From contig NW_026570335.1 in NCBI RefSeq assembly GCF_019649055.1, positions 540,002 through 604,001 of the forward strand: 64,000 nucleotides of DNA. Reading direction: 5' to 3'. Shown piece by piece: positions 9,770 to 51,133 of the stretch (position 1 is the stretch's first letter; every line of letters starts with the position of its first letter). Source of the stretch: Paramacrobiotus metropolitanus (Eukaryota > Tardigrada > Eutardigrada > Parachela > Macrobiotidae). The notes beneath the pieces are model-generated. The model was not told the DNA's origin, ran no database searches, and saw only the letters and a program-made list of their open reading frames with translations. The translations under genes were made by a program, and so were the position numbers.

Positions 9770-9770
9770 C

Positions 9771-12855: not shown

Positions 12856-13018
12856 CTCAGTAGGCGGGGAAATTGCGTGGGCACAGCTGAGTAGGCACTC
12901 TTCCGCCGACGGGAAGCGGTTGGCGTTGTCCTGGCAGCCGCCGTACCGGAAAAGCAGACAGGCGCGTTCGTACTGTACTTGCCGAAATACCCCGGTACGG
13001 ACCCACCACCTTCGGTAA
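12856..13018 (-). pseudogene. papilin Kunitz-6 exon fragment
   Basis: The minus strand aligns with main exon 32142-32414: PKVVGP, then YERACL and YGGCQDNANRFPSAEEC, then CAHAISPP. About 20 bp are missing where the main copy encodes CRGLLNVYYFD, so the reactive-loop cysteine is gone and the frame is broken. With 12451-12541 and 11150-11289 it keeps the Kunitz-6, Kunitz-7, antistasin order, so these three are remains of one inverted 3' copy. Confidence 0.75.
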
Positions 13019-18900: not shown

Positions 18901-20251
18901 AGACATAATAATAAGCATAACTCTCGAGAAAGATATCGTCACTCAATATTCAAAAATTCTCACTCATCTGCAAAAAGATACCAGGGAAAGCCACCTCTGG
19001 AGGTGGCTTCGCGTACCTATCGTTTTTCTTTGTATTTCAGGATATAAAAGCGCGTAAAATTTTGGCTGATATGAGACGCGGGGTTAGTACGGGTTTTGAG
19101 ATACGGTTCGCAGGGTACTGTATCAGAGAGTTGTGTATACGGGACGCATTAGGATACGGAGCATACCCCCGTCCCGAATTTTTTCACGGGTAACGAGGTA
19201 CGCGAAGCGAAAACCGACATACCGTATCGCGCATCTCCTATTCTGGGACGGTGGTGTCCTGTACCGTAACGAGATTCGCTACAGATTCGGGACGAGGCCT
19301 TACTTCCTTATAATACTCCAGAATCCAGATATTATGGCGCGTTAATGCAGGAAACCGCCGTACGCACAGCTATGCATTTGGGCCTGTCGCAATGTTTAAC
19401 CGCCGTGAGCGGTAGTTTGTCTGTTCACAGCTGTCTTTCAGTGCTTCGAACCTTTTCGAAATTTTCGATTTATTTGGCTGTTTACTGTAGACAGTTTAGT
19501 GTTTCGAACCTTTGCTGCTGTTTTCGGTTTTCTATCGTAAAAACGTAAACTGATCGTTGGCATAATGACTTTTAGAAATAATTATTCGCAAAAAAGGTGT
19601 TTTTAAGTCGTGAAAATTTGTTGCTGCAAAAAATGCTGCTGGTTTTTAGCGATTGTGAGTTTGACTGCGTCTGCTTGCGGTTCGGTTGATTCATGTCGAA
19701 ACATGACTGGCATTATTCCAGCAGATCATTGCGAGTCTTTCTTTGATTTTCTATTAATATGAACTGATTAGTGATTAACCCACTCTTGAATTTTGTAGTC
19801 TGTTGGCTGTGATAAGCGTCTGGGATCCCTGTTGCAAGAGGACAAATGTCGTATGTGCGGCGGCGATGCATCCTCCTGCAAGTTCGTGGAGGGCCTGTAC
19901 GACGACAGCGACGTACCCGAATCCTGTACGCTCTCTTTACTGATCTTTGCCAGAGAATTCTCGTGATTCTGATTTCATGATCATGTATCTGTAGCGTACG
20001 CGGAATTCCTGATCATCCCCAGCGGGTCGACCAACATCCAGATCCGCGAGCGCCGTCCCTCGGAGAACTACCTGGCCATGCGCAACGTCAGCGGCGAGTA
20101 CATCTTCAACGGGGACTTCAAGGTGGAGAGCGGCAAACGCCAGATGCGCATCGCGGGTACCCTCTTCACCTATTACCGCGAGAGCCCCATGTACCCCCCG
20201 GCCGAACTGCTCACGGCGCGCGGACCCACCACCGAGCCGGTGGCCATTGCG
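15981..20251 (+). CDS. papilin exons: TSP1-1, ADAMTS cysteine-rich region and spacer
   Basis: The five exons are 15981-16141, 16597-16757, 16980-17110, 19799-19925 and 19995-20251. The first carries the canonical TSP1 opening GPWSEWGTRSQCSKLCDGG. The second and third carry the ADAMTS cysteine-rich pattern (CVGPRKRYFMCNTEACPE, FRTEQCSKFDD, CELLCRPENGSFYVSF, DGTACHDD, VCVRGKC). The fourth has VGCDKRLGS and CRMCGGD. The fifth is the spacer (EFLIIPSGSTNIQIRER, NYLAMRNVSGEYIFNGDF). There is no protease domain, as expected of papilin and ADAMTS-like proteins. The 2.7-kb intron 17111-19798 holds a Tc1/mariner-like element. Confidence 0.9.
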
Positions 20252-26200: not shown

Positions 26201-29200
26201 TTCCGTTTCGTGAAGTTTCTAGAGGGGCAGTTATAAGCACCCTAAAAACGACCACTGCCCCGCCCACTTCATCACCGCCCACCTGCTTAGCGATATGTCA
26301 GAAGATTCCAGTTTTGGTATCATTAAATCCGCAATAAAAAGTTACACTAGAAAAGTGTTAAAAAGAGAAACCAAATGACGAAGAAAGGTATTTTTGAATT
26401 TAATTTATGCAACTGTCCGAACTTGGCGTGGCCAGGCTGTAGAAACAAATTCATATGATTGGGCTTGAGTTGAATTTATTCCCTAATCTACGGCATTTCA
26501 TATTTTTCAAGGAGTGTACGTCGTCTTACGTCTGACAATTATCGTCGTAAATCATTAATTTCTTTACAAACCACATGTAATGTTTTTATGATAATTTTTC
26601 CTAAATCTTATTAAAAATTGTAATGGATTGTCATCCGTAATAATAACCATTTTTACTTAACTAACCTTTTCGCATGATAAATTGCAATTACTTTACTGTA
26701 TTTACCCAAATGCTAACAGTGACCGTAGATATTCTTCGCTGATTAATTTTAACAGTGACTAGTCATTGTGGTAAATTCTTATTTATAAAGTAGTGTCACT
26801 GCTCTTGTACTTTTTTCCGTGTTAATGGTTGTCACTTTTTTTAAGTGATATATCTTTAATTATTTATGATTACAGAGGGATTCCTCGGTTCGACGACCGG
26901 CGCGGGGGCGGCCCAGAAGGACGCCGGGGTGGCATGTGCGGAGACAGAGTTCGGGTGTTGTCCGGACAATTCCACCGTGGCCGAGGGTCCCTACGGGGCC
27001 GGCTGCAACGCCACGGCGGACGGCGCGGACTCCACCGGAAGTAAGCCGCGACAACGCCGCTTGAAATCCGTCCCCATGTTCCCCATGGACAACAACGGGA
27101 CGCTGGACCTCAACGGGACGGACACGAACGGCACCGATACCACCGATAGCTTGGTATGGCTTATAATTTAAAATTATAATTAGAATAATTAGAGTAACTT
27201 ATTTATATTTTAAAAATTATTGTTATAATTATCTGGAATCTTTATACTGCATTCAAAACGGTGGGAGCCTGGGAGGGGACAAAAAGTTTTATTTATTTAC
27301 GTTGTAATTAACTGGCCATTTTATAATATACGGCTTCAAATTTCCGCAGCAGGCTGGAGAATTTTTTGCCGCTGTACCACGACATCCGTTGATTGACGGG
27401 GCGTATACAGTATCTGATAGGCTTGGGAACTGACTGCTTTGACGTACTGTACCTTACGCAATCTTTTTACCTGAATTTTTTGAATGCACCTAATTCAAAA
27501 TAATAGTTACGCTTACGTCGCTTGTGCTGTGAACTGCAACCATACTATGGAACTGCTTTGTCAAACTACAGCGATAAAAACATGAGAACGTTTAAATAAT
27601 ATAACGGAGCATTATTTCTGTTTATGATTAAATTTGTGTGTCCTCCATCGAAAAAATTGGGAGCATCGGCATTTTTGATGCAGGACCTCGACGAAACCGA
27701 CATGGTGACGACGGAGAGTACCCCGGCGGACAACGACACCCTGACGCTGGGCGAAGACCTGGCCATGGCGCCCACCGGCCGCAAAACCAAACTCCGTTCC
27801 CAACCGATGCTGCGCACCAACGACACCGCCGACGGGGCCGGCGCGGACGGATTGAACGCCACAGACACCGACTGCGCCACCTCCCAGTTCGGCTGTTGTT
27901 CGGACAACACCACAGCGGCCAGTGGAGCGAACCAGGAGGGCTGCGAGGACGCCGTGGAGGGCTCGGCGGCTGAATGTGAGGGATCCGAGTTTGGGTGTTG
28001 TCCGGATGGGAAAGTGCCAGCCCGCGGCCCGGACCATGCCGGATGCAAGCAGAAGAGCGAACCGGCCGTTGTGCAGGGAGAGTGTGCGCAGACGGAGTTC
28101 GGGTGTTGCGCGGACGGGCAGACGATGGCGCTGGGCGCGGAACGCGAAGGCTGTCCAGAGAGTGACTGCGCCAACAGCTATCACGGCTGCTGTCCCGACG
28201 GGGTGACCTTCGCGCAGGGTCCCGGTTATGAGGAGTGCCCGCACACCAAACAGCCCAAACAGAGTACGTGCCGCGCTGACTTATCCGATTTAAGTAAATA
28301 ACTGTACGTCGATTTTCTCATATTTCGGTCACATTAAGTGTACGGTTTCTTATTTTGGTCATCGGTCACCTACACCACCCCCATGTGGCGCGGTACCTGA
28401 ATAGCTGCTGATCGCACAACGTGCTTTTTAATTTGTTCTCACTGGTAAATTTACTTCTGATCATCGCAACGTATTTGAAATTGTTGGAGTTTGAAATTTC
28501 TGAAATTTGTAAACGTGGAAGAGCGGTTCTTTTGCAGTGCACCCGGTCTAATTCCTGCTCTTCCTTTTTTTTATGGAAATGTTTCAGAGTTTATGTTTCG
28601 ACATTCGCGAACAACGTTTTTCTAAGAAACTATTCATTTCTGGTCATTTTATTTACTAATATTTTAACACCAGGTGATCGAAGTATGAGGAAAACCGGAG
28701 TATACCAATTACTACGATTCTTGTCGAGTTTTTTTATTATTATGATTTTGTTGGGAAAAACAGATTGAAAAATTGCGGACAGTAATGGTTTTTATCAAGA
28801 AAAATTATGTTGGTTTTTTTTCCTAAATTCACTGAACAGAGTTCTGATCAGTAAATTTGGGAATTTATCAGTTTAATTTATCAGTAATGCCGAACAGACA
28901 GTCTTTCAGGAATAAATTGAAGTAATTCTGTAAATGGAAAGTTAATAGAAACATGCATTTCGGGTTTGAATGTACGGTTAAAAATTTGATAATCATTTTT
29001 GTTTCCGATCTTTTAGCAATACGTTTGCGATTCTACAGTTACCGTTTTGTACGGCGCCACACTACTACAATTTTATTCACTAATATTAAATGAGAACTCT
29101 GACTTAGTTGTTTGTATCAGCAGCTTTGTAATCGAAAAATGCGTTCACTCCGAAAGGAACAATCTTCTGCCAACCAAAAACGCAATGCATAATCTGAAAA

Positions 29201-32200
29201 TCGTTTAAGAAAATTGACTCAGAACATCGTTGCGATGAAGCTTACCGGTAAATGCTTGAAAGTGTGAATATTTGTTAATTCTGCTGTGTTTTGTTGGATT
29301 ACCGCAGACTGTGAAATCTACTCGGAACAAGGCTCGTGCCGCAATTACAGCATCAAATGGCATTATGACTTCGAATATGGTGACTGTACGCGCTTCTGGT
29401 ACGGCGGATGCGAAGGCAACGACAACCGCGTAAGCCGCAACAAAAAAACTTGCTGTGAACGTTGTTTAAGCGCCGCGTTTCTTTGAATTTTTCTGCTTTT
29501 GAATTTAAGTAAAAAAATTTAATTTAACGTTTAAAACTTAAACTTTTCTTTTGATTTAATGATTTAAAATTTCAAAGTGTAAGTAGTAATTATCTGTATT
29601 TTAAAAAGCGGGTTTTTAGTCTTGTTCTTGATTTTCATGTAAGCGCTTATTGAAATTGCATCGACTTTTTTATCGCGGCTGTATATGCAGAATTAGCGAT
29701 TAAACGTAGTGTAATGGATGTCTCAGCCAACATATGCAGCAGCTTCGAATGGGATTCAGTGGTTAAAACGATCAAGTTTTCTTTACGAATTTTTCAAATG
29801 TGGAATTAAGATTTTGGTTCTGTTCAAGAATAGCCCGCTTTTGGCGTTCGCTCAACAAGAATGTCCAACAGATCCGAAGAACCCAAATAAGTCTCCAGAA
29901 AAGAAATTACTTATTTTCTGGAAATACATATAACAAAATTAATTTTATTTTCTGGAATGTTTTAATTAAAAACTTTTTTGTTTAAAAAAAATTAATAATC
30001 CTAATGTTTTGTTCAGTTCGATTCGGAGCCGGAATGCCAGGCGGAGTGCATCCGTCCCGCCGGGGCGGCGGTGTGCAACCTGCCGAAGGTGCACGGGCCC
30101 TGCGACCAGAATCTGCGGATGTGGTACTACGACAAGTACGTCCGCGAATGCCTGCCCTTCCACTACGGTGGCTGTCTGGGCAACGAGAACCGCTTCGAGA
30201 GCCGCGAGGACTGCAACGAACGCTGCGTCGAGACGGCCATTCCCGGTAACTGAACGCGATCGTTCCCGCTGATTGCCGGGAAACCTGCTTAATGCAATGA
30301 AACTGCAACCAGTGCATATTGTTTGCCGTGTGTAGATGTGTGCCAGCAGCCGATGCGGCAAGGCAAAGGCCCCGGACAGATTGTGCGATGGTACTTCGAT
30401 AAGGCCAGCGGTCGATGCAATCAGTTCTTCTACAGCGGAAGTGGCGGTAATGGCAACAGGTGAGCGATTTTGGCACGCACGGTTACGTTCCTTTAGGCAC
30501 GGGTTATATTCCCTACTGAAAATAAAATTGGATTTTTTCTCCCCTTAAGGATTGCAGTTGTATTGCAATTTTGTTATATCAAATTTACCGCCTTTTATAT
30601 TCCCAATTTTATTTACAAAATTTCCGATAGTTATATTGATTATTTTGATGTGATTCTGCTATTTTAAAGTTATGGAACTCGAAGATTTTGGATTAAATCG
30701 ATTAATTAACTCGATTTTCTAAATACTGTTACCCCAAGTATGGCTGCATTACCGTTGTTTTTCTAGATTCGTTTCGGACGACCAGTGTCTTAAAAAGTGT
30801 GGTGCCGGCGAAACCCCGCGACCAGGTAAATATTTCGATTATTACAATGTTATTGTAAATGTCTTGGACAATTTTTAGTTTATTGTTTTTAATCTCAAAA
30901 CTATTATTATATGTATCACTACTCTACTATTTATGACTGCTTTTTAGTCTACATATGGTAGCTGTTTGAAGTGACAATTGCAAATAATTGTGAATAATAA
31001 GAAATAAGTGTTAATAACTGTAAATAAAAATAAATACTCCTGGTATTGCGGTGTGGTTAGCCAGTGTCGCTTTGCAGCGGACATCTGCACGTTGGAGAAG
31101 GCGGAGGGCGACTGCAAGGAGTACTACCCCCGCTACTACTTCGACCGCAACTCGCAGCGCTGCGAACAGTTCATCTACACGGGCTGCCAGGGCAACGAGA
31201 ACCGCTTCGAGCGGCTGGAGGAGTGCCAGCAGGTCTGTCTGCGCTACCTGCCCTCCCCGCCCGAGGGCGAGTACCCCACCGAGGCCCCGCCCACCGTCAA
31301 TCCCGCCGTCCAGCACTGCTTCCTGCCCAGCGACCGCGGCACGTGCGAGCGCAGTCTGCCGCGCTGGCACTACGACAGCACCGACGGCGTCTGCAAGCGC
31401 TTCTTGTTCTCCGGATGCGGCGGCAATAACAACAACTTCGAGACGCAACTGCACTGCCTCAACGACTGCGGCAACGCTCAAGGTAAGGCGACTTTTTACG
31501 AAAAATACAGCAAAGTATTAATTATCCTGCGACTAGTAAATAGTAATTATCAGTTTTTACTGTATTAACATTGTTGTTCAAAGTTAAGAAATTAAATCGT
31601 GCAAAGTCAAAATTAAAATTGAATTTATAATATTCTCCGTTCTGTGATATTGCAGCGGTGCAGAGTGCCTTCCAGCAGTATCTTGAACGACTTATGATAA
31701 ATCACACGGAGTTTAATATTTTTTTGATATGGTTTGCTTTATATAATTTTATACTATGCTATAATTATTATTTCGGTCGTTTATTTTACTGCATTTTTAA
31801 GATTTATTTACTGAAAAATATAGTGGAATGCGTATAGTCTCTGAAAAATATAGTCTCAAGAGCGTAGACGCTACTTCAGTTTTAAATGGATTGTAACTAA
31901 TGGGAAATTTTGCGATCGGCCATATCACAGTGCCATCATACTACAATGATCCATGCAGTGTACACAGCTCCATGTAACAGTAACGCGCGCTAACGAATGA
32001 ACAGCTGTTTGCGTCGCTGCGAAACCACAGAACAGAGAACATTGTTATATATTAGCCGAAATATGAGCAATATTTTGAATATCAGTGGCAAAAGAAAATG
32101 CTCCATGAACTGCATTGGCAGTTTTCTTATTGTTTCAACAGATAAATGCGAGCTGCCGAAGGTGGTGGGTCCGTGTCGCGGGCTGCTGAACGTGTATTAC

Positions 32201-35200
32201 TTCGACAAGTACGAGCGCGCCTGTCTGCCCTTCCAGTACGGCGGCTGCCAGGGCAACGCCAACCGCTTCCCGTCGGCGGAAGAGTGCCAGCAGAGTTGTG
32301 CCCACGTCATTTCTCCGCCCACTCCGCCACCCGTCGACGAGAACGTCCACACTATTCCGCCGGAATATCCCGCGCAGACATACCCCACGGCGCCCGGCCA
32401 GAATCCCTATCTCGGTAAGAACCGGGAATATTCCTGTTGTTTTAAGTATGAATGCGTTGCTTTCTTCCACAGTACTTACCAAGATATAAGGTAAAATTTT
32501 TCCCCGATTCTTTCTGTTGATTTTATATTCTGAAATACCAAAAAAACTTTGGTTTTATTAATTGCCGTAACATTTAATATTTCAACCTTTAGCTTCTGTA
32601 GTTTCACTTTCACCGTAACCATTTATTGCCACTGTACTACATCATCCCATAAAACTTCTCCCGTGCAGTTGGGCAGAACCGGCAAAAGTTGCTTTTAGTA
32701 CTGTCGGTATTGCTAGTATAATTTTCAGTGACAGTATTATTTGTCCGCATGGTAATTGTGTGTTCTTGTTTTTGTGTGTTGAACAGCCATCTGCAGTATG
32801 CCGGTGGATGCGGGAGCGTGCGATGAGCGGCAGGCGCGTTATTACTACGATATTTCTCAAGGCAAATGCTTGTCGTTTACTTACACGGGATGCGGCGGTA
32901 ACCAGAATCATTTCCACACACTGGAACAGTGCGAAGGCTTCTGTGCACAATGTAAGTGTTGATTTATTTGAAAGAAGCTAGAGCTTTGCGTAGAAAATGC
33001 TGAAGGGTGCGTTCTTGCTTCGAAAAATAGTACAACGCTAAAACTATGAATAGTCACAAAATTCTTTATGAGTAAAAACTATATTTTTTTAGTACTTAAT
33101 ATGCACCTTATCTGTGTAAAGCCGAAATAGTCTACAAAAGCGCTGCCAGTCAGTAGTGAGCTGGGTCACGTGCGTTGCCATTGCACTACGATGCCCATCA
33201 GAACGTGCGGAGTGCTTCAGTAATGTAGTCTGTGCTGAAACTGGGAATAAAGTGGGATAATATATTTCCGGCTTGGTCGCTTGATGCATGGAGGTCATTT
33301 CGCTGTAGTCTGTAGTAATGACAATCTGTAATCGTCTCGGTTGTAGTCGGTGTGGGATGTCCGGCGCGGACGTGCGACATCCAGTGCCCGTACGGCTACG
33401 AGAACGACCCCAGCTCCTGCCCCACTTGTCGCTGCGTGGAGCCCTGTCGCGACATGCAGTGCCCAGCGTATGCCGCCTGCACTGTCCAGACCCTGCCTAA
33501 TGGGGAATTCGTCGGCACCTGCACATCACGATGTAAGTACGCCGTCAGATTCGTCTGCGAAGTTTTTCGCACGAGTAAATTTTTCTTAAGTGTATTTTCT
33601 GAATTAATTAGCACATTCATTTATATATTTGCATAATATCTGAGTAAAATTTTTATTTGTCTAATATTTAAGTAAAATTTATTCGCCAAATATTTATGTA
33701 GTATTTGAGAAGAAAATGTTACAATGCGAAACACTTGTGATGTAGTTGAGTGAAATTTATATGGGAAAACTATTTCGTTGATATCTGCGTGACATATATT
33801 TGTGAACAGGATTATTTCCAGATTTATAGAAATTTTTGATGGGTTATTTAATAAGTAGTTGGTTGTCTTGTTTGTAGTGGAGAAAGCCGGCACCTGTCCG
33901 TCCCTGGAGGATATCCCGCCAGGTTCGTGCGATCGGGCATGCGGAACGGATAACGAGTGTCATGGACAACAGAAGTGCTGTAATAACGGCTGTGGTACGA
34001 CATGCATGACGCCTGTCGAACTCGGTAAGAGATTTTCCGGCAGACAGCCCCGAAATTGAAAAATTACTAAAAATTAATCAAATAAGGTGGATACTTCAAG
34101 GCCGTTAGGGAGCTAACAAACGTATTAATTATTCCAAATAATGACGATATATTATTGATTTGGTACAAGTTTGTACTACAAAATTTGTACAAAAATTTGC
34201 CACCGTTAATGGTCGATCATTTTTCACAAAATTACCTCTGAGGACTCATTTTAAACAACATAATTCAAAATCTGGTTGGTTTTTAGGAGAACAACCACCC
34301 GTCTATCCCTATCCAGAACCCACTCCGCCGCCTTACGAGCCGGAACCCCCCGTGGAGGGTGGACGTGCGTCATTTTTCCCTATCATATCCTTTTATTTTT
34401 CCCAACGTTTGTGTTGGTTGCAGCGTATCCAGCTTTCATTTCCGCGGGTCCGCATGAGCTGCGCGCCGAACCCGGTCAACCGTTGGACCTGCCTTGTCAC
34501 GCGCGCGGCAATCCCGAGCCGCAGGTCACGTGGCAGCACAACAACGCCACTTTGCGGCTGGACGATCATCACTTCCAGCAGCGCGGCTCCGATCTGCATA
34601 TTGAGGAGGTGCGACTGGACGACTCCGGCGACTACATCTGCTTCGCCAACAACGGCCTCGGACCCAGCGCGCAGCATCTTATACGCTTGCATGTCGAATG
34701 TACATAGTGCAGGGGCTTTTCAAAATCTTTTTTTGACACTTCGAGTCTGTGCAATATTAATTGGTGATTTTAAAAGGTTGGAGAAGTAAAATATTTTTTT
34801 GATAAACATGTTTTTTAATAAAGAAATTTTAATTAAAATAGGCAGATTGAAAAGTGGCTAGCACCTGCAGAAACGTATGGATTAATTTAAATCACAAAGC
34901 ATTATTGTTTTATTTTTGCAGGTTTAAAAATGTGAATAAATACGCCGTTATTTGTTTGTAGTTTGATTGGATGCTAAATATTTAATAATAATAAACTGGT
35001 TGTGTTTTGTAGCTGTGCTGAAGATCGACGGGTCGGACACGATGGTCAGCACCCGCGTCGGCGATCGCGCCATCCTCAAATGCTCCGCCCACGGCGTCCC
35101 GCAGCCCCGCATCAGCTGGAGCAAAGGTAATGTCGCGATGACAGCGATTTTAAACGGTCATAAAGAAACCCAATGATCTTCTATAAACGGCATAAAAAAT

Positions 35201-37146
35201 GCAACAATGAATTGTGAGTAAAAATAAATTAAAATTCATAATTAAATTCAGAAAGAGTACTGTGGGCTGAATTTAAGTCTAGCCTGGCAAGACAATTGAT
35301 TTCTTTACTCTCTCGTTTCTTCTTTCTCTCGATTGTACATTTACTCGTATTTTCATCGAATTAAGTTCGCATTAATTAACTGTAGAGAGTAATCTGACTT
35401 ACGCCGGCATTTTTACGACAATTTTTTCGCTAAACATTTATACGAATAAAATCAATGTAGGACTATAATAACTGTTCGCTACAGGTGGAGAACCGGTGGG
35501 ACGGGATTCGCCTAAATTCCGTCAGATGGGCGACGATTCGTTGGTGATCGAGAACGTCCAGTACGACGACCAGAGCGTGTACATCTGCACGGCCGACAAC
35601 GGGGTGCACGCGCCGGCCATCAAGAACGTCGTCCTCAGGGTGCACGGTAAGCACTCGGATTGTCGTGTCGTTAGGATAAAAAAAAGATCAAAATATTGAT
35701 TATTTCTGCGCGTACCGCGCGCATTCAGTGCAGATATGCGAGTTAGATGTCTGCAGCTATAAGCTATTTATAAAATTAAAAATAACTATTTTAATAATTT
35801 TTTTATAATTTTTAGTTTGTTTATTGATGTTTATAATTTAATTTATTTATATTTATTTTCAGTTTAATTTATTGATATATTGTACTGTTTGACGTGAGGT
35901 CATTTTTACTATTAAGCGCAATTTTAAATTTATTTTGTGATTATTGGTGCGGGTATTTCTTGGTAATGTTTTTAATTATCAGTGTGATTTTTGGTTGATT
36001 GGTTGTATCTTCCTCTTGCAGAGGAGATCAAAGCGCAGATCATCGCCTCGTCGTCTAACTTCGCCTCCGGCTCGCAGCTGCGACTGGAGTGCCGGGCTAG
36101 CGGCTATCCGCAGCCGCGCGTCCGGTGGTACCTGAACGCGCACGAGATCATCTCCGACGGCGACCGCTCGCAGGTCTTCACCAACGGGACGCTCCTCATT
36201 AAACGCGCCCGTGCCTCAGACGCCGGCGTGTACCAGTGCCAGGCCAGCAACGAGCAGAGCAGCAGCTCAGATTCCCTCCGCGTCTTCATAACAGGTAAAA
36301 ACCGAGAGAATTCCTCACTAAAGACAGTTTTTTCCGTACCGCTTGCCACTCACAATATTTTTATTCAGTTGTACAATATTTACCGTATTGTAGGACTTTT
36401 TTATATTTTTATATGACTTTCTTTTTGGTGTTTTTTATTTAAGTAATTATGTCCGTTCCCTCTGATCAGTGATTATTATTAATTCTATTTTCACTATCAT
36501 AGATTATGTTCTTAACTGGTTTCTTAACACAGATTATATTCTTCAGATTTTAATATTTGTGTAGTTTTATGAGCCCTGATTCTGCCGTTATTTGGTATAG
36601 ACCGTATAGCAGATCCTAATTTAACTACGATTTGCACCGTGAACGTTGACTGTGCTCTGCTTATGCGGTATTTATCGCAGTATGCAGCGCGTAAACGTAG
36701 TGAAACGGTTTCTAAGCGTTGGACAGTAAGTGTGGATCCGTGATTAATATGATCACAATTATGTAAATTATTAATTAACGGTCTTATGTCGCTACAGAAA
36801 TTCTGTACCATTTTTTAATGCTGCTGTGGATAAAGTTGTATTAGAAACCTAAAACCAGTGCAAAGTATAATATGCATTGAATAGTTTTAAAATTAAAAGG
36901 TCTGCTTTTCACGGAGTTTTTACCAATTAAAAATCGTTTTCTTCTGGCGCAGGCGCTCCGCTGACGCAGGAGTGCACGGACAACGAGTACTACGCCAACT
37001 GCAAACTGATCGTGGTGGCGGAGTTGTGCAACAACGAGTATTACGCCAAATTCTGCTGCAAATCCTGCACGGAATCCGGCCAGATCCGACCCAACGGCTA
37101 CCGGCGCAGACGGAAGCGTTCGCTGCGACCGGCGCATTTCCTCTGA
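15981..37146 (+). CDS. papilin-like extracellular matrix protein (main copy, 28 exons)
   Basis: Papilins are secreted basement-membrane glycoproteins combining an ADAMTS-like N-terminal region with Kunitz inhibitor, Ig and PLAC domains. Some act as inhibitors of ADAMTS procollagen proteinases. I joined 28 exons with GT-AG splice sites in consistent phase, giving about 1885 residues from the first recognisable exon to TGA at 37144. Approximate residues: TSP1-1 17-80; cysteine-rich and spacer 81-279; TSP1-2 to 7 280-664; five cassettes 665-950; seven Kunitz 951-1330 and 1355-1409; antistasin-like 1410-1471; WAP 1472-1520; Pro-rich linker 1521-1546; three Ig 1547-1821; PLAC 1822-1885. The start codon and signal peptide are not located. 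From the first Kunitz exon onward most introns are phase 1. The one defect is a CAAG tandem duplication at 21951-21958 inside TSP1-3, which shifts the frame, so this allele may encode a truncated protein unless it is an assembly error. Confidence 0.9.
17649..18574. mobile_element. Tc1/mariner-like non-autonomous DNA transposon (926 bp)
   Basis: The ends are perfect inverted repeats of at least 27 bp, beginning CAGAGGGTTATTCAGCC, and each end is flanked by TA, the target duplication of the Tc1/mariner superfamily. It lies in the papilin intron 17111-19798. No intact transposase ORF is present, so it is probably a deletion derivative. Confidence 0.85.
20990..24933 (+). CDS. papilin exons: TSP1 repeats 2-7
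   Basis: The exons are 20990-21249, 21831-22039, 23170-23355, 23632-23802, 24337-24528 and 24792-24933. Most repeats straddle an intron: the W..GEW/DW start lies at the end of one exon and the CS.(S/I)CG.G core starts the next. Cores seen are CSSSCGGGRQSR, CSASCGGGTQYR, CSAICGPGFQIR, CNTCGQRSRTRR, CSASCGEGVQTR and CTQKCGGGSKRR. Exon 21831-22039 contains the CAAGCAAG duplication. Removing one unit restores both the conserved NCNQFKCPDWMVGEWSP tail and the phase into the next exon. The intron 22040-23169 holds a long fold-back repeat. Confidence 0.9.
22395..22990. repeat. fold-back (long inverted repeat) in a papilin intron
   Basis: The two arms, roughly 22395-22680 and 22685-22990, are imperfect reverse complements and meet at a tight centre with TTTTAAAATTT-type palindromes near 22682. 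Matching landmarks include the segments with CGGTTTATGAC / GTCATAAACCG and GTCTCGTTATGGAC / GTCCATAACGAGAC. It sits in the intron between TSP1-3 and TSP1-4. Transcribed, it would form a hairpin with arms near 290 nt. It could be a fold-back transposon or an inverted duplication of one. Confidence 0.8.
25325..26439. mobile_element. Tc1/mariner-like non-autonomous DNA transposon (1115 bp)
   Basis: Terminal inverted repeats of 26 bp start CAGCCTGGCCACGCC, with TA on both sides. The element lies in the intron between the TSP1-7 exon and the first cassette exon. The internal ORF at 25608-25889 has no transposase motif I recognise. Confidence 0.85.
26876..28263 (+). CDS. papilin exons: five papilin cassettes
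   Basis: The exons are 26876-27153 and 27684-28263. The cassette signature, a Cys followed by EFGCCPDG.T.A.GP...GC, appears once in the first exon and four times in the second (SQFGCCSDN, SEFGCCPDG, TEFGCCADG, YHGCCPDG). The first exon ends in a basic, then Asn/Thr-rich tail with NGT glycosylation sites; NATDTD in the second is another. The preceding 1.9-kb intron contains a Tc1/mariner-like element. These cassettes are specific to invertebrate papilins, which is what makes the family call firm. Confidence 0.9.
29308..32951 (+). CDS. papilin exons: seven Kunitz inhibitor domains
   Basis: The exons are 29308-29429, 30017-30245, 30336-30459, 30767-30825, 31078-31482, 32142-32414 and 32787-32951. 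Domains 1 and 3 are split by an intron just before the conserved Phe (GNDNR|F, GNGNR|F). By position after the second Cys, P1 residues are R (K1), D (K2), K (K4), E (K5), R (K6) and D (K7). K1, K4 and K6 could therefore inhibit trypsin-like proteases, while the acidic ones probably cannot. K3 lacks both the second and fourth cysteines (GKGPGQIVRW, YSGSGGNGN), so one disulfide is lost as a pair. The K6 exon ends in a Pro/Thr linker. Confidence 0.92.
33347..34364 (+). CDS. papilin exons: antistasin-like, WAP and Pro-rich linker
   Basis: Exon 33347-33532 has the antistasin pattern CPARTCDIQCPYGYEND, then CPTCRC, followed by a second cysteine segment (CRDMQCPAYAACTVQ). Exon 33878-34024 is a WAP four-disulfide core with all eight cysteines (CPSLEDIPPGSC, CGTDNECHGQQKCC, CGTTC). 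Exon 34287-34364 is a short Pro/Glu-rich linker. All three begin and end in phase 1, so each can be skipped or duplicated without a frameshift. Antistasin-like and WAP modules are protease-inhibitor folds, which extends the Kunitz theme. Confidence 0.88.
34424..36294 (+). CDS. papilin exons: three immunoglobulin domains
   Basis: Ig1 is one exon (34424-34699: PCHARGNPEPQVTW, DSGDYICFANN). Ig2 is split over 35013-35126 (LKCSAHGVPQPRISW) and 35485-35646 (DQSVYICTADNGVHAPA). Ig3 is 36022-36294 (LECRASGYPQPRVRWYLN, DAGVYQCQASNEQ). Each has the Cys, Trp and DxGxYxC landmarks of I-set/C2-type Ig domains. The phases are 1-1 throughout. Confidence 0.92.
36953..37146 (+). CDS. papilin last exon: PLAC domain and stop
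   Basis: The exon follows a TGGCGCAG acceptor. It encodes a six-cysteine PLAC domain (QECTDNEYYANC, AELCNNEYYAKFCCKSC) followed by a basic tail (RRRRKRS) that could be a proprotein-convertase site, and ends in TGA. PLAC closes papilins and several ADAMTS proteins. The 3' UTR resembles that of the second copy at 51134-51320. Confidence 0.92.
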
Positions 37147-39700: not shown

Positions 39701-40530
39701 TAAGATATGCTACAGATACGTGCAGCGCAGTCGACTGATCCGCATCCTCGTCGCGGGAGGAACTTTCAACTGGAGCGTGGCCACTGGTCACCGACGGCCT
39801 ACAAGACCTGCAGCGGGAGAAGATGTCGCGAATTACCGGCATTTGCCCGTAAAACTGCACAAGCGGATGAGGAAGACGGATAATGGATTGAGCATTGTAC
39901 CTAGTTAAAACTTGGTTCAGCGTGTCAGGGCGTTGTCAGCGCTGTGCACTATTTGGTTTTCAGTATAGCGATATTTTGAAACTTGTTAACCTTCTTCAGT
40001 CACGGGTCTGGCAAATTAAGAGCATATGTGTCTAAGCTTTTTCCAGTTGTTAAGATGCAAGTTTTAACTTATCGCTCAACGATCATCTGTAATTCTTCAG
40101 AAAGAGTGTGAGCGTACTCGTTGGAGGATAAAGGAGAGCGTATGGTCAGTACGGAAATGCATTTGGCGCAGGTAAAAGACAGCTAATGGAAACTAGCTGA
40201 TGCGTGTTAGAATAACAGTACTTCGCACAAGGTTGTTTAATAGGCGTATATTTATTCACTAATGCAAGGATTTTTAGAAGTACAAGCCGGTCCGGATGAT
40301 GAGCATGATACAATACGAGGACGAGCTTAGTACATGTGATAGACAAAAAAACTAGCGAGAGAATCTGATAACCATGCCCGGCCCGTGCAACACGGGCAAC
40401 CACCCAGGTTTGGCAGTGCTGGTAAACACATCACATTTAATACAAATAATCACCCCAGTAATACCGCACACTTTATTTCTTTACAGTAAAACTTTGACTT
40501 TGTAGAACCACATGTGAAATTTCAGAGGAC

Positions 40531-41094: not shown

Positions 41095-41436
41095 CTCGCC
41101 AGCTGAATCTTTATATTTAGATGGTAATTTTATAACATTATTATCAAGGGCTTGGTTAATTAATGTCGGTCACTGGTTACTGGAAATTTTGCGGAGAACC
41201 AATTATAAACAAAGTTATAAAACCAAAACAAAACTCGCATTTAAATTTTAGTACGTGTGTGCGTTACAGTAAATAGCAGGCCGTGTTCACCTAACGGCTG
41301 CGTGACGGCGCGCTGCTACCGCCAGCCTAAGGTGGCTGACAGTGTTGCACAGCACGCAAATGGTTATCAGATTCTCTCGCTAGTTTTTTTGTCTATCACA
41401 TGTACTAAGCTCGTCCTCGTACAGCGAAAAGTGTAA

Positions 41437-41570: not shown

Positions 41571-42260
41571 TAAATTACTGTAATGGGTAACGGCGAAACG
41601 TAGTCCAGTGGTCATCGTGTTAAACGCTAACAGCGCGCTCAATATTATACATCACCTGTACCTTTACGTATCATCATCCGGACCGGCTTGCACAAGAACA
41701 CACTCGGAGCAATACTGAATAATACAGATACTGCGGGAAATTCTTTTCAGCTTTTTCCAGTCGCTGTAAGCGGCGGTGGTAAGCCATGATCATAATATGC
41801 TTACATGTGCTTAGAGCTGTACAGTAGCGCTTGGAGTGATTTTTGTGAGTATCTGTACAGACTGCAGAGTAGAACAGAATAAAGTTTAGAATCGATACCG
41901 AACATTTGACGTAAATGTACCCGCTCTGCATGCCTTATTTTAACACGAACCAGTACTCTGTAGTTCACACTTGACATTTGCGATCTCTGTACAAGCGTAC
42001 AAGGAGATAGCAATCCACAGCGGAACTAATGCAGCATTTTTTCGGCTAAACGCTCGCCAAAGTGAACCGACAGCATTTTTAATGCGCTAAGAAAATTATC
42101 AGCTCGTCAATCATTTGATGCGCGATTAAAGGAGTGCGCAGAATGTATCATCAAACCTGGTGTTGTTTGTAAAGGCTCCACGATAACAGTGCGCAAGCCA
42201 TAGCGTACGTGCCGTACATCCTTCATGTGTTTTTAAGACGTTCGTAGTAATTCTTCAGTG

Positions 42261-44379
42261 ATGTTCCTTACAGTATTATGGTTTTCTATTCTCCTTCCGA
42301 TAGCGCATGGAAGTAACGTCTCGGTGCCTACAGGTAAATTTCTCTATTTAGCTGCCTAAAGTTTCAGTAAAATCACTAAAATTGCAAAATTCAAACAACG
42401 TTGAGAGGGATGCCTCTAGAATCTTGAGTACTTGACTGAGCTTTATTTCTAATCTCTCGAAGACTGGAGAAACTTGTTCGACGAGAGGATTTTGGAGACT
42501 GCAGAACTGCAGAGAAACGGCAGCAAGTTTTATCCCGACGACATTATTGGGGATAGTGACGATGTTGATGGGCAACACAGTCAACACGCCGCAATCAAAA
42601 GAACCGGTCTGCTTTTGGAGCATAACTACTGGCCAAATAACGGGAAGAACATACCATTTGAAATACGTAGCTTTGGTAAGTTGCAGTTTCGTTGAATTTC
42701 TTGGGATCATGTGATGTTTTTTCCACAAGCGGACTTTCGTGTACGGTGTATCTCCTAGGTGAAAATGAGCGGCGTCGGATACAGCAAGCGTTGCGTTTTA
42801 TAGAAAGCCGAACCTCGCATTGTATAACGTTTAAATATCGTGCGAACACTGCAAATGAATCGGCGTATATTGCATTCATGCCCGGGAGAGAAGGGTAAGG
42901 CATTAAAGAAACGGTGCTGCATCGGATAAAGATAAAACCGCAAATGTTCCATCATGATGCCAATATATTAAAGTAAATAACTGTAGCCTGTATACCGGAA
43001 GCTTGCTGTGCCTTCGGTCGCTTGATGGCTGATTTCTTAATCATTGCTGCCCGGACCCTTTTACTTATTGACGAAATTACGTATACAACATAAAAATCTT
43101 TCTAACAAATAGCATTAGTTTTATACGTACTGCAAGTCTACAAGCATATGCAAAAGACCGAGGTCAAAGTAGCAAAACGGACGGAGGAGTGAACACCGCA
43201 AACGACAGCGGTACAAACATGCAGTACAGCAGCAACAACTACTCATAGCAGGCGGTTCGCCGCAGGACTGTTGTTTTTGTACACTATAGATCTAGAAGCT
43301 TCAGAAAGACCCATAATAGGTTTCAGATACACTGAACACCACTCACACTAATTGCCGGTCGGCAGCAGTGTCAGAATTTTATTGTTTACAAAAAAAAGTG
43401 TTAGAAAATATACAAACTGCGTATTTAAAGTGGACTTTATATAAGCGGTAGCACATTCTACCCGTTTTCATAGCGTTACCACCTATTATGAAATCCACTA
43501 AGGTCTAAGGGTACTCAACTACATGTAATTATCCTTTACGAACGGCTCGATAAGTTATAAATGTCCTTTCAGTGCCCTTACAGTGTACAACTGTACATTA
43601 CTGGTTGGTCATCTATCAATTTAACGCTACGGTAAATACACAGGATATGTCGAGCAGACGTCGGAAGGGTACCGGGATTTGTTACCAGAGTGCAACTGAG
43701 CGCTGATTGCTTAAGCTCAATGGGAATTATTCTACACGAAATCCTCCACGCTCTGGGTATGTTCCACGAGCAGAACCGTCCAGACAGGGACGATCACATT
43801 GAGATCTTCACCGCACACATCGCCCCGAAAATGCAGCACAGTTTTGAGATCTTACCTAACATGTCTGTCCACGGGACCAAATACGATATCGAGTCGATCA
43901 TGCACTACGGACCCCTGGATTTCGCGCTGTCCTCTGCACACCCGACCATGCTGCCCAAGCGGCACGCACCACGCATGGGCCAGCGCCGGACTTTAACCCA
44001 CCTGGATGTGGTCAAATTGCAGAACGCGTACAGATGTGATTGGCCAGAGCCGGGCGATGAACACACAGTGCAACGCTATTCTCCCACCAGTTCTATTTCG
44101 ACGACCACAGAAGCTTCTTTAAAAGCCAATATGAGCAGCACAACCTCGGAATTGCTTGTTACTGATACTTTACAAAGCAATAAACATATTTCCGTTCACG
44201 TAAACGAGACGGTCACTGTTTCAAGGAACTCTTCGAGGAGTACTAGAGTATCGACAAAATTTACGACTGCGAAATATGATGTGAATGCCACAACTTCAAC
44301 GACGAAGGCTGTAATTCCCTTACATGCAACTACAGGGGAATTTATTGCCACGACAGCCAAAAGCAGCTACGATAATCCG
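42261..44379 (+). CDS. astacin-family zinc metalloprotease (secreted)
   Basis: The five exons 42261-42333, 42463-42675, 42759-42894, 43584-43631 and 43689-44379 join in phase to exactly 387 codons. The first encodes a signal peptide (MFLTVLWFSILLPIAHG). A propeptide carries an IIGD motif, the astacin aspartate-switch region, and a basic start to the mature enzyme (IKRTGLLLEHNYWP). The zinc-binding signature HEILHALGMFHE and the Met-turn SIMHYGP are intact. First and last family cysteines are present (SHCITF, NAYRCDW). The usual Cys before WS is Gly here (TGWSS), so one disulfide may be missing. A Ser/Thr-rich tail follows. The 57-bp intron 43632-43688 is short but needed for frame. The last exon ends at a strong GTAAGT donor; reading on stops at 44430. 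The downstream papilin half-copy is in matching phase. Confidence 0.85.
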
Positions 44380-44715
44380 GTAAGTTTATTAACAGCTACA
44401 TGGTCAGTTACAGCGGCTAAATGGCTTTAATGTAGCGCTAATTTTGGACTCTTAAGCCCTTTAATTTGCGGCTTATGGTCAGCAAGAAGCTTATGAGCAT
44501 ACAGCATACTACATACTAGTACGCAGTGAATTTGGTAATACTTTATTGGAATTCAGGAATCGTTTATAACTTGAGATCGAGCGTCTTTTCCTTATTTCCC
44601 GATACACCAAGGTTTTAGACTAATGCGATTATGCTAAAAATACTAAAACCGCTTGGCGGTAAAGTGAAATGGCGGCACATGCATAGTAGGCCGACGCGAA
44701 CTTCATTAAACACAG

Positions 44716-45295
44716 TACCTGCCCTACCGCGAGTATTCAACGGAAGCCCCGCCCCCCGCGAATCCCGCCGTGGCGCACTGCTTCCTACCCAGTGATCCCG
44801 GAACATGTGAGCCCAGTCTGCCGCGCTGGCATTACGACAGCACGGATGGGGTATGCAAGCGATTCTTCTTCTCCGGATGTGGCGGGAATAAGAACAATTT
44901 CGAGACACAGCTGCACTGCCTCTTCCACTGCGGCAAAGCTCAAGGTAAGGAGGTTACAGTGCGCTCTATATGCATTAGCGGTAATTTTACGTACTGGACT
45001 GTTGCTTTTTGCTTAGATAAATGCAAGTTACCGAAGGTGGTGGGTCCATGTCGCGGCCTGCTGAACGTGTACTCGTATTACTTCGACAAGTACAAGCGCG
45101 CCTGCCTGCCCTTCGAGTACGGCGGCTGCCAGGGCAACGCCAACCGCTTCCCGTCGGCGGAAGAGTGCCAGAAGATCTGCGCCCACGTCATTTCCCCGCC
45201 CACTCCGCCGTCCGTCGACGAGAACGTCCACACCATTCCGCCGGAATATCCCGCGCAGACCTATCCCACCGCGCCCAGACAGAATCCCTATCTCG
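44716..45295 (+). CDS. half-copy exons: Kunitz-5 and Kunitz-6
   Basis: Exon 44716-44944 begins inside the Pro-rich sequence before Kunitz-5 (YLPYREYSTEAPPPANPAV), then has HCFLPSDPGTCEPSLPRW, so P1 is Glu as in the main copy. Exon 45017-45295 is Kunitz-6 (KLPKVVGPCRGLLNVY, P1 Arg) with a two-residue insertion (YSYYFDKY) and the same Pro-rich tail. Confidence 0.85.
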
Positions 45296-48200
45296 GTAAG
45301 AAACGGGAATTGTATCTGCTGCACTAAGTGTAATTGCGTTTTGTTCGACTCTGAACAAACTTACCATTACCCGATCCTAAGGACTAATTTCAAACGATCC
45401 CTAAAGGATCGTCAGGTACTGAACTTTAGAACCGCAGTCGAGCCAAAGAGGAGCGACTGTATATTGAAAAATTTCTGGATGGAGAGTGGAGCTCTATGAT
45501 TGGGCGATCGTGTTACGAGCACAAAGGGATACAGATTTCGAGCACCTAGCGACTCGTTCTACGGTTTACCGATACTGGTCAGTCGAGTCAAAAGAGAGTC
45601 TTTTTCGATGAAAGAAGTATGCTATGGGAATCAGCCGCAGCTCATTTGGGGAGCAAGTCACACTCGTAAATGGATCGGAAGTAGCGGATTCACTTTTATC
45701 AGTTATGCACCCAGCTTGAAATATTAAATTTTATTAATTTCGCCTAAAATGTTAATTATTAGGTGACAGCGGAAGCAACTGATACGAAGTCGTAACAAGT
45801 GCAAAATTACTAAAAAACCAAGAATCAATTACTAACTTCACCAGTCAGTTAAAGACAACCGCGTCATATACAAGTAATATAACTATAGAACTTATAAAAA
45901 TGAATCCAAATACAACTAAACAACATGCAGTAATAAAAAAGGCATTTTTATCAACAAAACTACCGGTATCTTTCCTGCTTTTATTTTGGCGGTCGTTTCC
46001 GGTAGTCGGCTGTGTTCGGCAGCGCGCGATTTCGCGGTTCTTCCACTAGCTCAAGGCTCTGGTGGTTGTACCTCAGTGTCCTATCGTCGCGAAGTCAGCA
46101 GTGCGGACACAAGCTAAAAATATAAAATTTAAACCGAATCGATCAGAGCCTCAGTTGACAGATTTTATTTACGGGATGGAATCAGAGTAAAGCTGGATAC
46201 CTTTAATTTCATAGCGCCAACAAAGACTTTGCCAAACATGCGCAGCAATTTCGCATCCGTTGCTTTTGATCAGAAAATTTCCGTTTAATTGACTTTCAAA
46301 TTTTTCTGCGAACTCGCATCTGCAAAAACAAATGTTTCATATAATTAATATGTTTGCGCGCTTTGAAATCTCACATTTTGTTTTAAAGACTTGCATGAAT
46401 TTCGACAAAATTAAGATGATAACTAATATTAACTATAAATATGTATTGCAGCATAAAATTCAATAAACCTCATCTAATTTTTAATAATTCGATTATAATT
46501 TTATAATACAAAATACCAGACTAATTTACTTTGAACTTACAATAAAAAGTTATTGGTATACATTTTAGTTATTTGGTCGTAAATTTAGGCTGTAAAATCA
46601 ATAGACTTAGTGGTCCAACATACCTTCATTTGTTCTGGTTTCACTGTTCCTTAATGCAACTGCCCCTGCAGTTGCACAGTAGCGAAATCGCCTAGTCGGG
46701 ATGGAGGGGTAGAAGTAGAAGTCCAGCGACGAATGTTAAGAGTAGCACGTCTGAGGTTAAGCAGGGCAGTCACACTGTCACAGGCTGGACGTTTTCAGGA
46801 CACGCTTTCCTTCTTTAAAAGTAAGCTTATCTTCTACAGTAACTTATCCCGAAATAATTTTCGAAATGCGAACTCGCACGCAACTGATGGGCAAAATATA
46901 GCTGGGTTGGAAGGAAAAGGAAAAGGGGATAAAGTTCTTTGAGTTTTTTGAACCAACAAACTCAAGTGAACGTTGGCTTGAAAAAAGTTTTTTTCAAAAA
47001 ACTGAAAGCATGAATCTGCAGGCTGTTCAGTCAGACTGCAGATTCAGCCAACACGCTGCATCACAGCAAGCTCCATGCCGCCATCTTGTGTACGCATTTG
47101 ACGATGGCCATTGGACACACAGCGAAGAACACGCCTTCTCTTTATTAACATACGGTAAATGTACGTACGCTGTTAATGGGCAGTGGGCACTTTAGCCCCA
47201 GCTGCGGTATGCCGAGCACAAGTCGCTCGACTCGCCAGCTCTCAAGGCAACCGCAACTAACTGCCTTTAGACCGGGTTAGGCAACGTACAATTTCCAGTT
47301 GATTCTGTACTCTGTAGCTTGTAATGCCAAAGAAGTTTCTCTTTTATTACAGTAATTTATTTTTGACTCTGATAATGTCATAGGTATGCCGCGTACTTTC
47401 TCAACCTTAAAAGTCTGCTCCTATGTTGCCATTGCACTAGATCAACCAACAGAACTTCTCCGCTTGAGCGGTGCAGTAAATAGGCCAACTGGCTAAAACA
47501 CTTAGTTCTTGGTCTGCCATTGCCAATAATTATTATGAGCGATTTCATCAGATTGTAAATATGCAGTCGCCATTCAGGGAAGCGCAGTATTATTTGTCAC
47601 TATCTGTTGTTTATTTGTTCATGTTCTTTGTGTTGAACATCAACAGCCATCTGCAGTATGCCGGCGGATGCGGGAGCGTGCGACGAGCGACAGGCGCGTT
47701 ATTACTACGACATTTCCCAAGGCAAATGCCTGTCCTTCACATACACGGGATGCGGCGGTAACCAGAATCATTTCCACACACTGGAACAGTGCGAAGGCTT
47801 CTGCGCACAATGTAAGTGTCAACCTTATCAAATAAATTTGCCGTGTTCGGGAAAACAAATATTGAAGAGCTTCCTTTCGCTCCGAAGCAGAATCAGAAGA
47901 GGCTGAAATAGCAGTGAGTGGTTAGGATGTGAAAATATATATGTGATATGACCGCAGACAGCTTCTTCCGAACGAAAAGAATGCTGTTGTAAATTAAGCA
48001 TAGGAAGAGTATAATTAAATGCCATATTTGTGTAATTCAACCATTGCTGTCTCTGTTGGACCATCACAAGAACTATGAAAAAATTTGTCCTACTTGCATG
48101 CTATCTGACTGATAGCGATAGTGTACAAAGTTGCTGAAAGCATCCATATGGTCATGACGTTGCCGTTGTACTACGATGCACCTCATCGAATGTTGGGTTT

Positions 48201-51133
48201 AACTGACTTCAGCCTGTACCGTAACTGGAAAAAAAGAGGGATAATAGTATTATTCCGGGTTTGTCGGGTGATAATTCAAAAGCGTTTCGCTAGAAGTTGT
48301 AGCAAAATCTGTACCGTACGTTGCAGTCGGCGTGGGATGTCCGGCGCGTACCTGCGACATCCAGTGCCCGTACGGCTACGAGAACGACCCCAGCTCCTGC
48401 CCCACCTGTCGCTGCGTGGAGCCCTGCCGCGACATGCAGTGCCCGGCGTATGCCGCCTGCACTGTCCAGACCCTGCCTAATGGGGAATTCGTCGGCACCT
48501 GCACATCACGATGTACGCCGTAAAATTCATCTGCGAAGGTTTTCGCACGAGTACGGTAGATTTATTCTTAAGTATATGCTTAATGTATTTGCACATTCAT
48601 TTATATATTTGCATAATATCTGAGTAAAATTTTTATTTGTCTAATATTTAAGTAAAATTTATTCGCCAAATATTTGTGTAGTATTTGAGAAAAAAAATTT
48701 ACAATGCGAAATACTTGTGATGTATTTGAGTAAAATTGATATGGTAAAACTATTTCAGTAATATCTGCGTGACGTACATTTGTGAACAGGATTATTTCCA
48801 GATTATAGAATTATTTGATGGGTATTTAATAAGTGGTTGGTTGTCTTGTTTGCAGTGGAGAAAGCCGGCACCTGTCCGTCCCTGGAGGATATCCCGCCGG
48901 GCTCGTGCGATCGAGCATGCGGTACGGATAACGAGTGTCATGGCCAGCAGAAGTGCTGTAATAATGGCTGCGGTACGACTTGCATGACGCCCGTTGAACG
49001 CGGTACGGCATTTTTGGGAAAAAAGTTTTGAATTTATACAAAAACAAGATCAATTAATTACATTAGAACTAATTTGTTTCTAAGCAGTTTGCCTAGTGAA
49101 TATTGCACAGAGCCGGAATAAACAATAATACACGCAAATAAAAAAAAAATAACTAAGGGAGCCCAGCAAAACACACCAAGCCATAAAAAGTATTTAAATT
49201 AATGACCTTTTGCAAATTAGTACTTCATTTGCCACAATTATAAATGTCGAATACTTTCAAAAAATATATACCATGTATTAGAAGAACAACCACCCATCGG
49301 TCATTATCCCGAACCCACCCCGCCACCCTACGAGCCGGAATCCCCCGTGGAGGGTGGACGTGAGTCACCCTTCTATAGATCTTTTTATTTTTCGGAAAAC
49401 GTTATTAATTTAAGTTAATTTCAATCATAATTCCGGTATGAGTTAATTATTTGCGATTTGGTTACCCGGAAATGCTTGATTGTGAATGGTTGTGCTGCAG
49501 CTGTACTGACGATTGACGGGTCGGGCACGATGGTCAGCACCCGTGTCGGTGATCGGGCCATCCTGAAATGGTTCATTACGCCGATCAGAGCGTGTACGTC
49601 TGCACCGCCGACAACGGGGTGCACGCACCGGCCATCAAAAACGTCGTCCTCAGGGTGCACGGTAGAGATTCGGAATTCCATTTGTCTCGTTGATTGATGA
49701 ACGACCGATACACTTCACAGCAGTAGAATTGATAATTGCTATTCCATTTTATTCATCATCATTGTTATGAATTTTAAGTCCTTTTTCTACAGATATGGGG
49801 TGTACCACTGTGTACGCAATAACCAGCAAACTCTTTATACTGTAAATAGAATGTTACAGTACCAGAAGTACTTAATCAAAATAATACACTGTTTACTGGT
49901 TATGATGGTTTATTCTGATGCTGTTATTAGTATTAACTAATGAATATTGTTCCAGTTCATAGTTTTTGAATGGACGTTATAATGTACTATTATTCCTACG
50001 TTTACAAGAATAAAAATAAAATTAACAGAACTGTAATTGTGATAATATTATTGTTGATCGTCATTTTAGAGGAGATCAAAGCGCAGATCATCGCCTCGTC
50101 GTCCAAATTCGCTTCCGGCTCGCAGCTGCGGCTAGAGTGTCGGGCCAGCGGCTATCCCCAACCTCGTGTCCGTTGGTACCTGAACGCCCACGAGATCATC
50201 TCCGACGGCGACCGTTCGCAGGTCTTCACCAACGGGACGCTCCTCATTAAACGCGCCCGTGCCTCAGACGCCGGCGTGTACCAGTGCCAGGCCAGCAACG
50301 AGCAGAGCAGCAGCTCAGATTCCCTCCGCGTCTTCATAACAGGTACACCGGCGAAATCCCTCGCTCCTGACAATTTTCCAATTAATCATGTTTTCTGTTT
50401 ACTGGGTGTTAACAGTATTTTTATTCAGTTGCTTTCCCTCAAGTAATTTTCCTTTTTTTATTGTTTCTTTTTTTGTGTTGTTTGTTTCACCTTTAATTTT
50501 ATTATTACTTATTACTGAATATTATTATCAGATTTTATTACCACCCGCCATTTTATTGAAGGTTAGCACATGCTGTTTGGATGAGTTTGTTTTTGATATT
50601 TTTATGGGCGTTTTCAATCATTTTTCTGGTACAATTCGGTTATCGCAGCTTAATAATTTCACTGGGTTTCCGCCGCGCGCGTCATGCAGAAGTTGACCGT
50701 ATCAGTATATCGTTATGTTCGCGTATAAACGTAGTACAGATCGAACGGCGTGTAAGATTCTGACCAAAAATTATAATAAAAAAAGTAAACTTATATGTTT
50801 TATTAATGCTGCTGTTGACAAAAAATACCGATAAACTATCAGAGAAAAATATACGCCAGGTATGCCAAAAATTAAATTCTATTTTTCACGAAGTTTTGCA
50901 ACAATAAACTGCTTTAAACTCGCGCAGGCGCTTCAATGACGCAGGAATGCACGGACAACGAGTACTACGCCAACTGCAGATTGATCGTCGTTGCGAAGCT
51001 GTGCACTACTAGTGAATATTACGCCAAATTCTGCTGCAAATCCTGCACGGAAGCCGGCCAAATGCTGCCCAACGACTACCGGCGCAGACGGAAGCGCTCC
51101 CTGCGGCCGACGAAAAACATCTCCATAATTTAA
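44716..51133 (+). CDS. second papilin 3' half (Kunitz-5 to PLAC), probably fused to the astacin gene
   Basis: Forward exons 44716-44944, 45017-45295, 47647-47811, 48327-48512, 48856-49002, 49282-49359, 49501-49661, 50070-50342 and 50928-51133 match the main gene from mid-exon Kunitz-5 to the stop. The Ig1 exon is absent and the Ig2 exon is damaged. There is no signal peptide or N-terminal half of its own. The first exon starts at a new acceptor (ACACAG) in phase 0, exactly matching the astacin donor at 44380. Leaving out the damaged Ig2 exon keeps all phases consistent and gives 520 residues to TAA at 51131, or about 907 with the astacin part. The alternative is an untranscribed partial duplicate. 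Preservation of splice sites and frame in eight of nine exons favours function. Confidence 0.75.
45296..47646. other. enlarged intron of the half-copy, no gene seen
   Basis: The matching intron of the main gene is 372 bp, whereas this one is 2351 bp. The two edges resemble the main intron and the middle (about 45400-47400) does not, which indicates an insertion or rearrangement. I saw no clear terminal repeats or transposase in it. Confidence 0.5.
47647..49359 (+). CDS. half-copy exons: Kunitz-7, antistasin-like, WAP, linker
   Basis: Exons 47647-47811, 48327-48512, 48856-49002 and 49282-49359 have exactly the main-copy lengths (165, 186, 147 and 78 bp), with splice sites and frames intact and few amino-acid changes (MPADAGACDERQARYYYD; CPARTCDIQCPYG; CPSLEDIPPGSCDRACG). 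The strong conservation shows that this duplication is younger than the inverted one. Confidence 0.88.
49501..49661 (+). pseudogene. half-copy Ig2 exon: two exons fused by deletion, frame lost
   Basis: The exon begins as Ig2 part one (LTIDGSGTMVSTRVGDRAIL) and passes directly into Ig2 part two around ADQSVY. It has lost the end of the first exon, the intron and the start of the second, 115 exon bases in all. The join is out of frame and the exon no longer has phase 1-1 length. Skipping it would keep the transcript in frame. Confidence 0.8.
50070..51133 (+). CDS. half-copy exons: Ig3 and PLAC with stop
   Basis: Exon 50070-50342 is almost identical to the main Ig3 at protein level (LECRASGYPQPRVRWYLN). 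Exon 50928-51133 is the PLAC domain (QECTDNEYYANC, FCCKSCTEAGQ) with the basic RRRRKRS motif and a different C-terminus (TKNISII). Both frames are intact. Homology with the main locus continues into the 3' UTR to about 51320. Confidence 0.88.

Follow-up and report, generated by a model that had tools for sequence, protein, structure and literature searches.

Does a predicted astacin metalloprotease gene of the tardigrade Paramacrobiotus metropolitanus run, across a splice, into a duplicated 3′ part of the adjoining papilin gene, or do the two lie side by side as separate things? We addressed this in a window of 64,000 nucleotides (C115:540002-604001), taken from a 169.8-Mb assembly of 533 contigs; all features described are on the forward strand unless stated otherwise. 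A sequence-only reading had proposed the chimera, and each of its coordinates was reproduced exactly. With a damaged exon for the domain Ig2 skipped, an open frame of 906 codons runs through four astacin exons, all intact (42261-44379), and eight exons of papilin type (44716-51133). To this model Pfam assigns Astacin, three Kunitz domains, Antistasin, WAP, one Ig domain and PLAC; Ig3 and PLAC belong to it only when Ig2 is skipped. Astacin is the sole catalytic match, with no M12B reprolysin-type domain in the model, and Pfam finds neither TSP1 repeats nor an ADAMTS spacer, although the main papilin gene has both. The earlier statement that all later exons except Ig2 keep frame to a stop holds for the eight exons that complete the 906 codons, with the refinement that the Ig1 exon is missing from the duplicate and Ig2 is frame-shifted.

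The astacin exons and their paralogues

The astacin part is preceded by a putative promoter and 5′ untranslated flank (42000..42260) that is common to a paralogue on contig C85; blastn similarity to this paralogue (L023) starts at ~42000 and extends across exons 1 through 3 at 68%. Exon 1 (42261..42333) encodes a stretch judged by eye to be signal-peptide-like (MFLTVLWFSILLPIAHG); exon 2 (42463..42675), homologous to exon 2 of L023, encodes the propeptide; the catalytic domain begins in exon 3 (42759..42894); and exon 4 (43644..44379; 736 nt) carries the zinc site, the Met-turn SIMHY and a Ser/Thr-rich tail and ends in phase 0. The Pfam match to Astacin has an E value of 1.8e-44 and 152 bits against a cut-off of 22.5, and both marks of family M12A are present: the HExxHxxGxxHE zinc site (HEILHALGMFHE) and the SxMHY Met-turn. 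Inspection of the translation by eye gives a hydrophobic N terminus and an IIGD motif, candidates for the signal peptide and the propeptide aspartate switch, respectively. Compared with L023 the dN/dS ratio is 0.12 (dS about 1.07), indicating that the astacin is constrained. Read unspliced past 44379, the frame continues for 16 more codons to a TAA (44428-44430).

The nearest astacin relatives are L023 and a second paralogue on C85, L024. Exon 4 of L024 measures 739 nt against 736 nt here (exon-4 dS 1.67) and has the same GTAAGT donor, also in phase 0; the chance of an in-phase GTAAGT at the end of exon 4 is ~0.002. In L024, exon 4 is followed by exons for LDLa and Ig and then an LRR-like domain, and in a further gene on contig C55 (L026) astacin and LRR lie within a single open frame. 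L024 may be a degenerate gene, since its ATG is seemingly lost and the reading frame shifts where exon 2 starts; exon 4 is undamaged. Within the window we found no remnants of LDLa, Ig or LRR exons of the astacin, which would be a sign of insertion inside the astacin gene. The tails of L024 and L026, together with the lack of such remnants, indicate that a C-terminal extension is normal in this astacin lineage and that the C115 copy is truncated, the front part of a longer gene that has lost its tail here.

Coding constraint on the papilin duplicate

The duplicate stems from the main papilin gene, namely from its 3′ part (31061..37146, copied from 31245). As a whole the main gene is a papilin: upstream of this part it has an ADAMTS spacer and TSP1 repeats, and these are followed by Kunitz, antistasin and WAP modules, three Ig domains and PLAC. 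The duplicate begins with an exon for a linker and Kunitz 1 (44716..44944; main counterpart from 31245), left-truncated at the duplication edge. Exons follow for Kunitz 2 (45017..45295), Kunitz 3 (47647..47811, with the duplicate's first in-frame Met), an antistasin-like domain (48327..48512; a 4-nt deletion has turned its donor from GTAAGT to GTACGC), WAP (48856..49002), a linker (49282..49359), Ig3 (50070..50342) and, in the last exon, PLAC and the stop (50928..51133), with WAP, Ig3 and PLAC assigned by Pfam. The damaged Ig2 exon (49501..49661) has a net coding deletion of 115 nt, which shifts the frame. Around and just past the stop, duplicate and main gene are ~65% similar.

Neither the Kunitz 1 exon nor that for Kunitz 2 contains an in-frame ATG, and a TAA (44707-44709) shuts the frame just upstream. 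Because these two exons are nonetheless constrained (ratios of 0.14 and 0.15, respectively), predicted translation of the duplicate must enter by splicing, from a phase-0 donor to meet 44716; the astacin donor is phase 0. The duplicate might instead be expressed but spliced to another upstream exon, or receive its start by trans-splicing, since 44716 could take any phase-0 donor and the first exons require an outside start. We regard this as very improbable: the ATGs in 44431-44715 yield no convincing phase-0 first exon, the first in-frame Met comes only in the third exon, so that a plain spliced leader cannot rescue Kunitz 1 and 2, and the strongest donor, in phase, already sits on the nearest upstream coding exon.

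Across 507 codons the duplicate differs from the main gene with dN 0.041 and dS 0.348 (ratio 0.118). When the changes were polarized via the other papilin copies, 17 silent and 2 replacement changes fell on the main branch and 31 silent and 20 replacement changes on the duplicate branch, giving the latter a ratio of ~0.23. Measured against the 2.75 replacements expected for each silent change under neutrality, full neutrality is rejected for the duplicate branch (P = 3e-7), which is relaxed relative to the main branch (P = 0.023). Replacements concentrate in Kunitz 2 and PLAC, with one each in Kunitz 3, WAP and Ig3 and none in the antistasin domain; the eight exons have no stops or frameshifts, and their net indels come in threes. 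A low dN/dS alone was rejected as proof that a gene is alive: three further copies of papilin on the contig (L021, L022 and one on the minus strand of the window at 11-13 kb), used as controls, have ratios of 0.17 to 0.27 but carry frameshifts and stops and are pseudogenes. Since dead copies also score low, the ratio speaks for past rather than present coding, and it is freedom from lesions that sets the duplicate apart. Judged from its sequence, the duplicate is conserved as a protein.

These pseudogenes with low dN/dS, the loss of Ig1 and the frame-shifting deletion in Ig2 lend weight to the alternative of two separate things: an astacin gene ending at the TAA at 44428-44430, and a headless papilin fragment, perhaps a full-length copy minus its 5′ half, that was coding until recently and is now dead. 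Death in the last 2 to 5% of the branch fits, as neutral decay over that time would often give one lesion (P 0.67 to 0.21). Death at least 10% of the branch ago fits poorly, with ~6 lesions expected at 10% against the one seen in Ig2 (P = 0.019), and the surplus of amino-acid changes would require 10 to 38% of neutral time. The lesion rate of the L021 pseudogene predicts ~13 lesions. Further, no 5′ papilin half could be traced in 37.2-44.7 kb, and the exon-4 donor has been kept, though a stand-alone astacin has no need for it. We consider this alternative unlikely, if a serious one.

Splice signals at the proposed junction and the Ig2 exon

The proposed junction intron (44380..44715) connects two sites that the sequence-only reading had already singled out. 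The astacin exon indeed ends at 44379 in phase 0 with a strong GTAAGT donor, and the left edge of the duplicate falls at 44716, right after ACACAG, where the main-gene counterpart (31245) lies in the middle of a continuous exon. No other donor scored as high as this one (11.8), which ranks among the top 0.03% of the GTs in the window. The acceptor (-2.2) is unremarkable: ~64% of AGs score higher, and on a matrix built from a small set of 26 acceptors it falls below all 26 of them, the exon-4 acceptor of the same gene scoring -0.6. That the junction is in phase adds little evidence, as other in-phase AGs would also be tolerated by the linker. The weak acceptor speaks for the alternative of two separate things, as does an ATTAAA at 44705, which could terminate an astacin transcript; AATAAA is absent between the astacin and the duplicate and occurs downstream of the duplicate at 51535. 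Homology of the junction intron to the C85 introns was considered and rejected, the similarity being no higher than for shuffled sequence.

Misassembly could also have brought the astacin and papilin fragments together. The contig ends 12 to 22 kb from the locus, several papilin copies lie in the region, and a search of the assembly turned up neither an allele nor a further copy of the junction. Against this, a dS of about 0.35 between duplicate and main gene argues that no read was collapsed or re-used, the sequence at the junction is unique, with a single 100% match, and the assembly was built with Canu (PMC11191345). An artefact of this kind seems to us extremely improbable.

If Ig2 is included, the frame meets a stop in the exon that follows, which would truncate the protein before Ig3 and PLAC. 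The exon has a good acceptor (7.8), a poor old donor (2.9) and a good new internal donor at 49593 (7.2); rescue via the internal donor was rejected, as the join makes a TAG immediately. Because both the full exon and the 49593 donor give stops, the full product needs Ig2 to be skipped, and the good acceptor and internal donor make inclusion with a truncated protein plausible. The Ig2 remnants (dN 0.056, dS 0.407) have few replacements, so the damage is probably recent.

Taken as a whole, the evidence points to a chimeric gene in which the astacin and the papilin 3′ part are probably read as one fused transcript. A full product through PLAC is conceivable, yet we would not count on it; support is stronger for the astacin-Kunitz-antistasin-WAP part than for the stretch through Ig and PLAC. 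The original proposal gains independent backing from the inherited donor, the constraint on start-less papilin exons and the loss of the native downstream astacin exons, whereas use of the weak 44716 acceptor, skipping of Ig2 and the transcript itself stay putative. In the chimeric gene, a multi-exon astacin gene would supply the 5′ fragment, comprising promoter region, signal peptide, propeptide, catalytic domain, Ser/Thr-rich tail and phase-0 donor; the 3′ fragment of the neighboring papilin would come after it, joined by splicing from 44379 to 44716. The product would be a secreted, propeptide-controlled zinc protease, which the Kunitz, antistasin and WAP inhibitor modules may tether to matrix or cuticle; with Ig2 skipped, the Ig and PLAC domains could add to this tethering. 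Since the duplicate (dS about 0.35) is younger than the astacin copy (dS about 1.07 to L023), an astacin was probably already present when the 3′ half of papilin was copied to a site beside it. No second astacin or matching spacer, as a simple tandem duplication would leave, was found.

Comparison with papilins, astacins and ADAMTS proteases

If transcribed as one gene, the locus would show the assembly of a new multidomain extracellular protease, with donor and recipient genes both surviving and their ages measurable, and would unite a protease with protease inhibitors of three kinds in a single chain. Its expression in anhydrobiosis would be of interest because desiccation is reported to induce the papilin of another tardigrade (PMC12167791). 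In the parts of the literature searched (astacin with Kunitz or papilin; tardigrade astacins), no astacin-Kunitz-WAP-Ig-PLAC protein was found.

The Kunitz, antistasin-like, WAP, Ig and PLAC modules of the putative chimera derive from the adjoining papilin gene, papilin being known from Drosophila and from Hypsibius exemplaris (BV898_05466), whose published papilin peptides closely resemble CEIYSEQGSCRNYSIK and AEPGQPLDLPCHARGNPEPQVTWQHNNATLR of the main gene (PMC12167791). Unlike papilin, the chimera lacks TSP1, ADAMTS spacer, Ig1 and a working Ig2, and it has a protease, which papilin does not. Shuffled modules are also common to papilin and GASP/WFIKKN (PMC3427181). With the astacins (M12A), including the tardigrade astacin-LDLa-Ig-LRR (C85) and astacin-LRR (C55) genes, it shares the catalytic domain, exon structure and exon-4 donor, but papilin 3′ exons stand in place of the native LDLa/Ig/LRR tail. 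As in other chimeric genes made by partial gene duplication or exon shuffling, the 5′ part of one gene, with its promoter, would be combined with the 3′ part of another; the breakpoint, however, falls within an exon and the junction has phase 0, whereas the other modules here are joined by phase-1 introns.

ADAMTS proteases (M12B) combine a metzincin catalytic domain with papilin-type ancillary modules, including PLAC. The chimera is alike in principle, a metzincin with papilin-type modules including PLAC, and, if it is one gene, would test whether this plan can arise twice. The furthest-reaching interpretation, which we offer only tentatively, is of a functional, lineage-specific secreted protease in which papilin's modules for inhibition and matrix binding, through PLAC (Ig2 skipped), have been added to an astacin catalytic domain, so that the ADAMTS layout was re-invented convergently from another metzincin family. 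By its catalytic domain the product is an astacin, neither a papilin nor an ADAMTS; with an M12A catalytic domain and neither TSP1 nor spacer, its likeness to ADAMTS would be convergent.

Papilin copies on the contig

Contig C115 carries a single intact papilin among decayed ones. At least three additional partial copies, with frameshifts, stops or exons missing, lie at C115:504000-513999 (L021), at C115:530002-540001 (L022) and, on the minus strand, at window positions 11145-12975. The papilin 5' part is itself present twice in the window, on opposite strands (345-10597, minus, matching 17004-28269, plus).

The main papilin gene and its headless 3' duplicate are nearly identical over two tracts (33592-33824 versus 48572-48804; 36170-36297 versus 50218-50345); this near-identity, which extends to intron sequence, suggests that the two have recently undergone gene conversion.

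Astacins with LRR-like tails

Two tardigrade astacins carry a C-terminal LRR-like domain (L024:3448-5910, on C85; L026:7041-8303, minus strand, on C55), one of which (L024) has LDLa and Ig exons between protease and LRR.

Repeats in the window

A foldback (self-complementary) stretch occupies 22398-22993, and part of it is found again on C85 (L023, ~7968-8385). Upstream of the astacin gene, a 91-base inverted pair (40314-40404 and 41331-41421; 90% identity, ~1.1 kb apart) resembles the ends of a DNA transposon.
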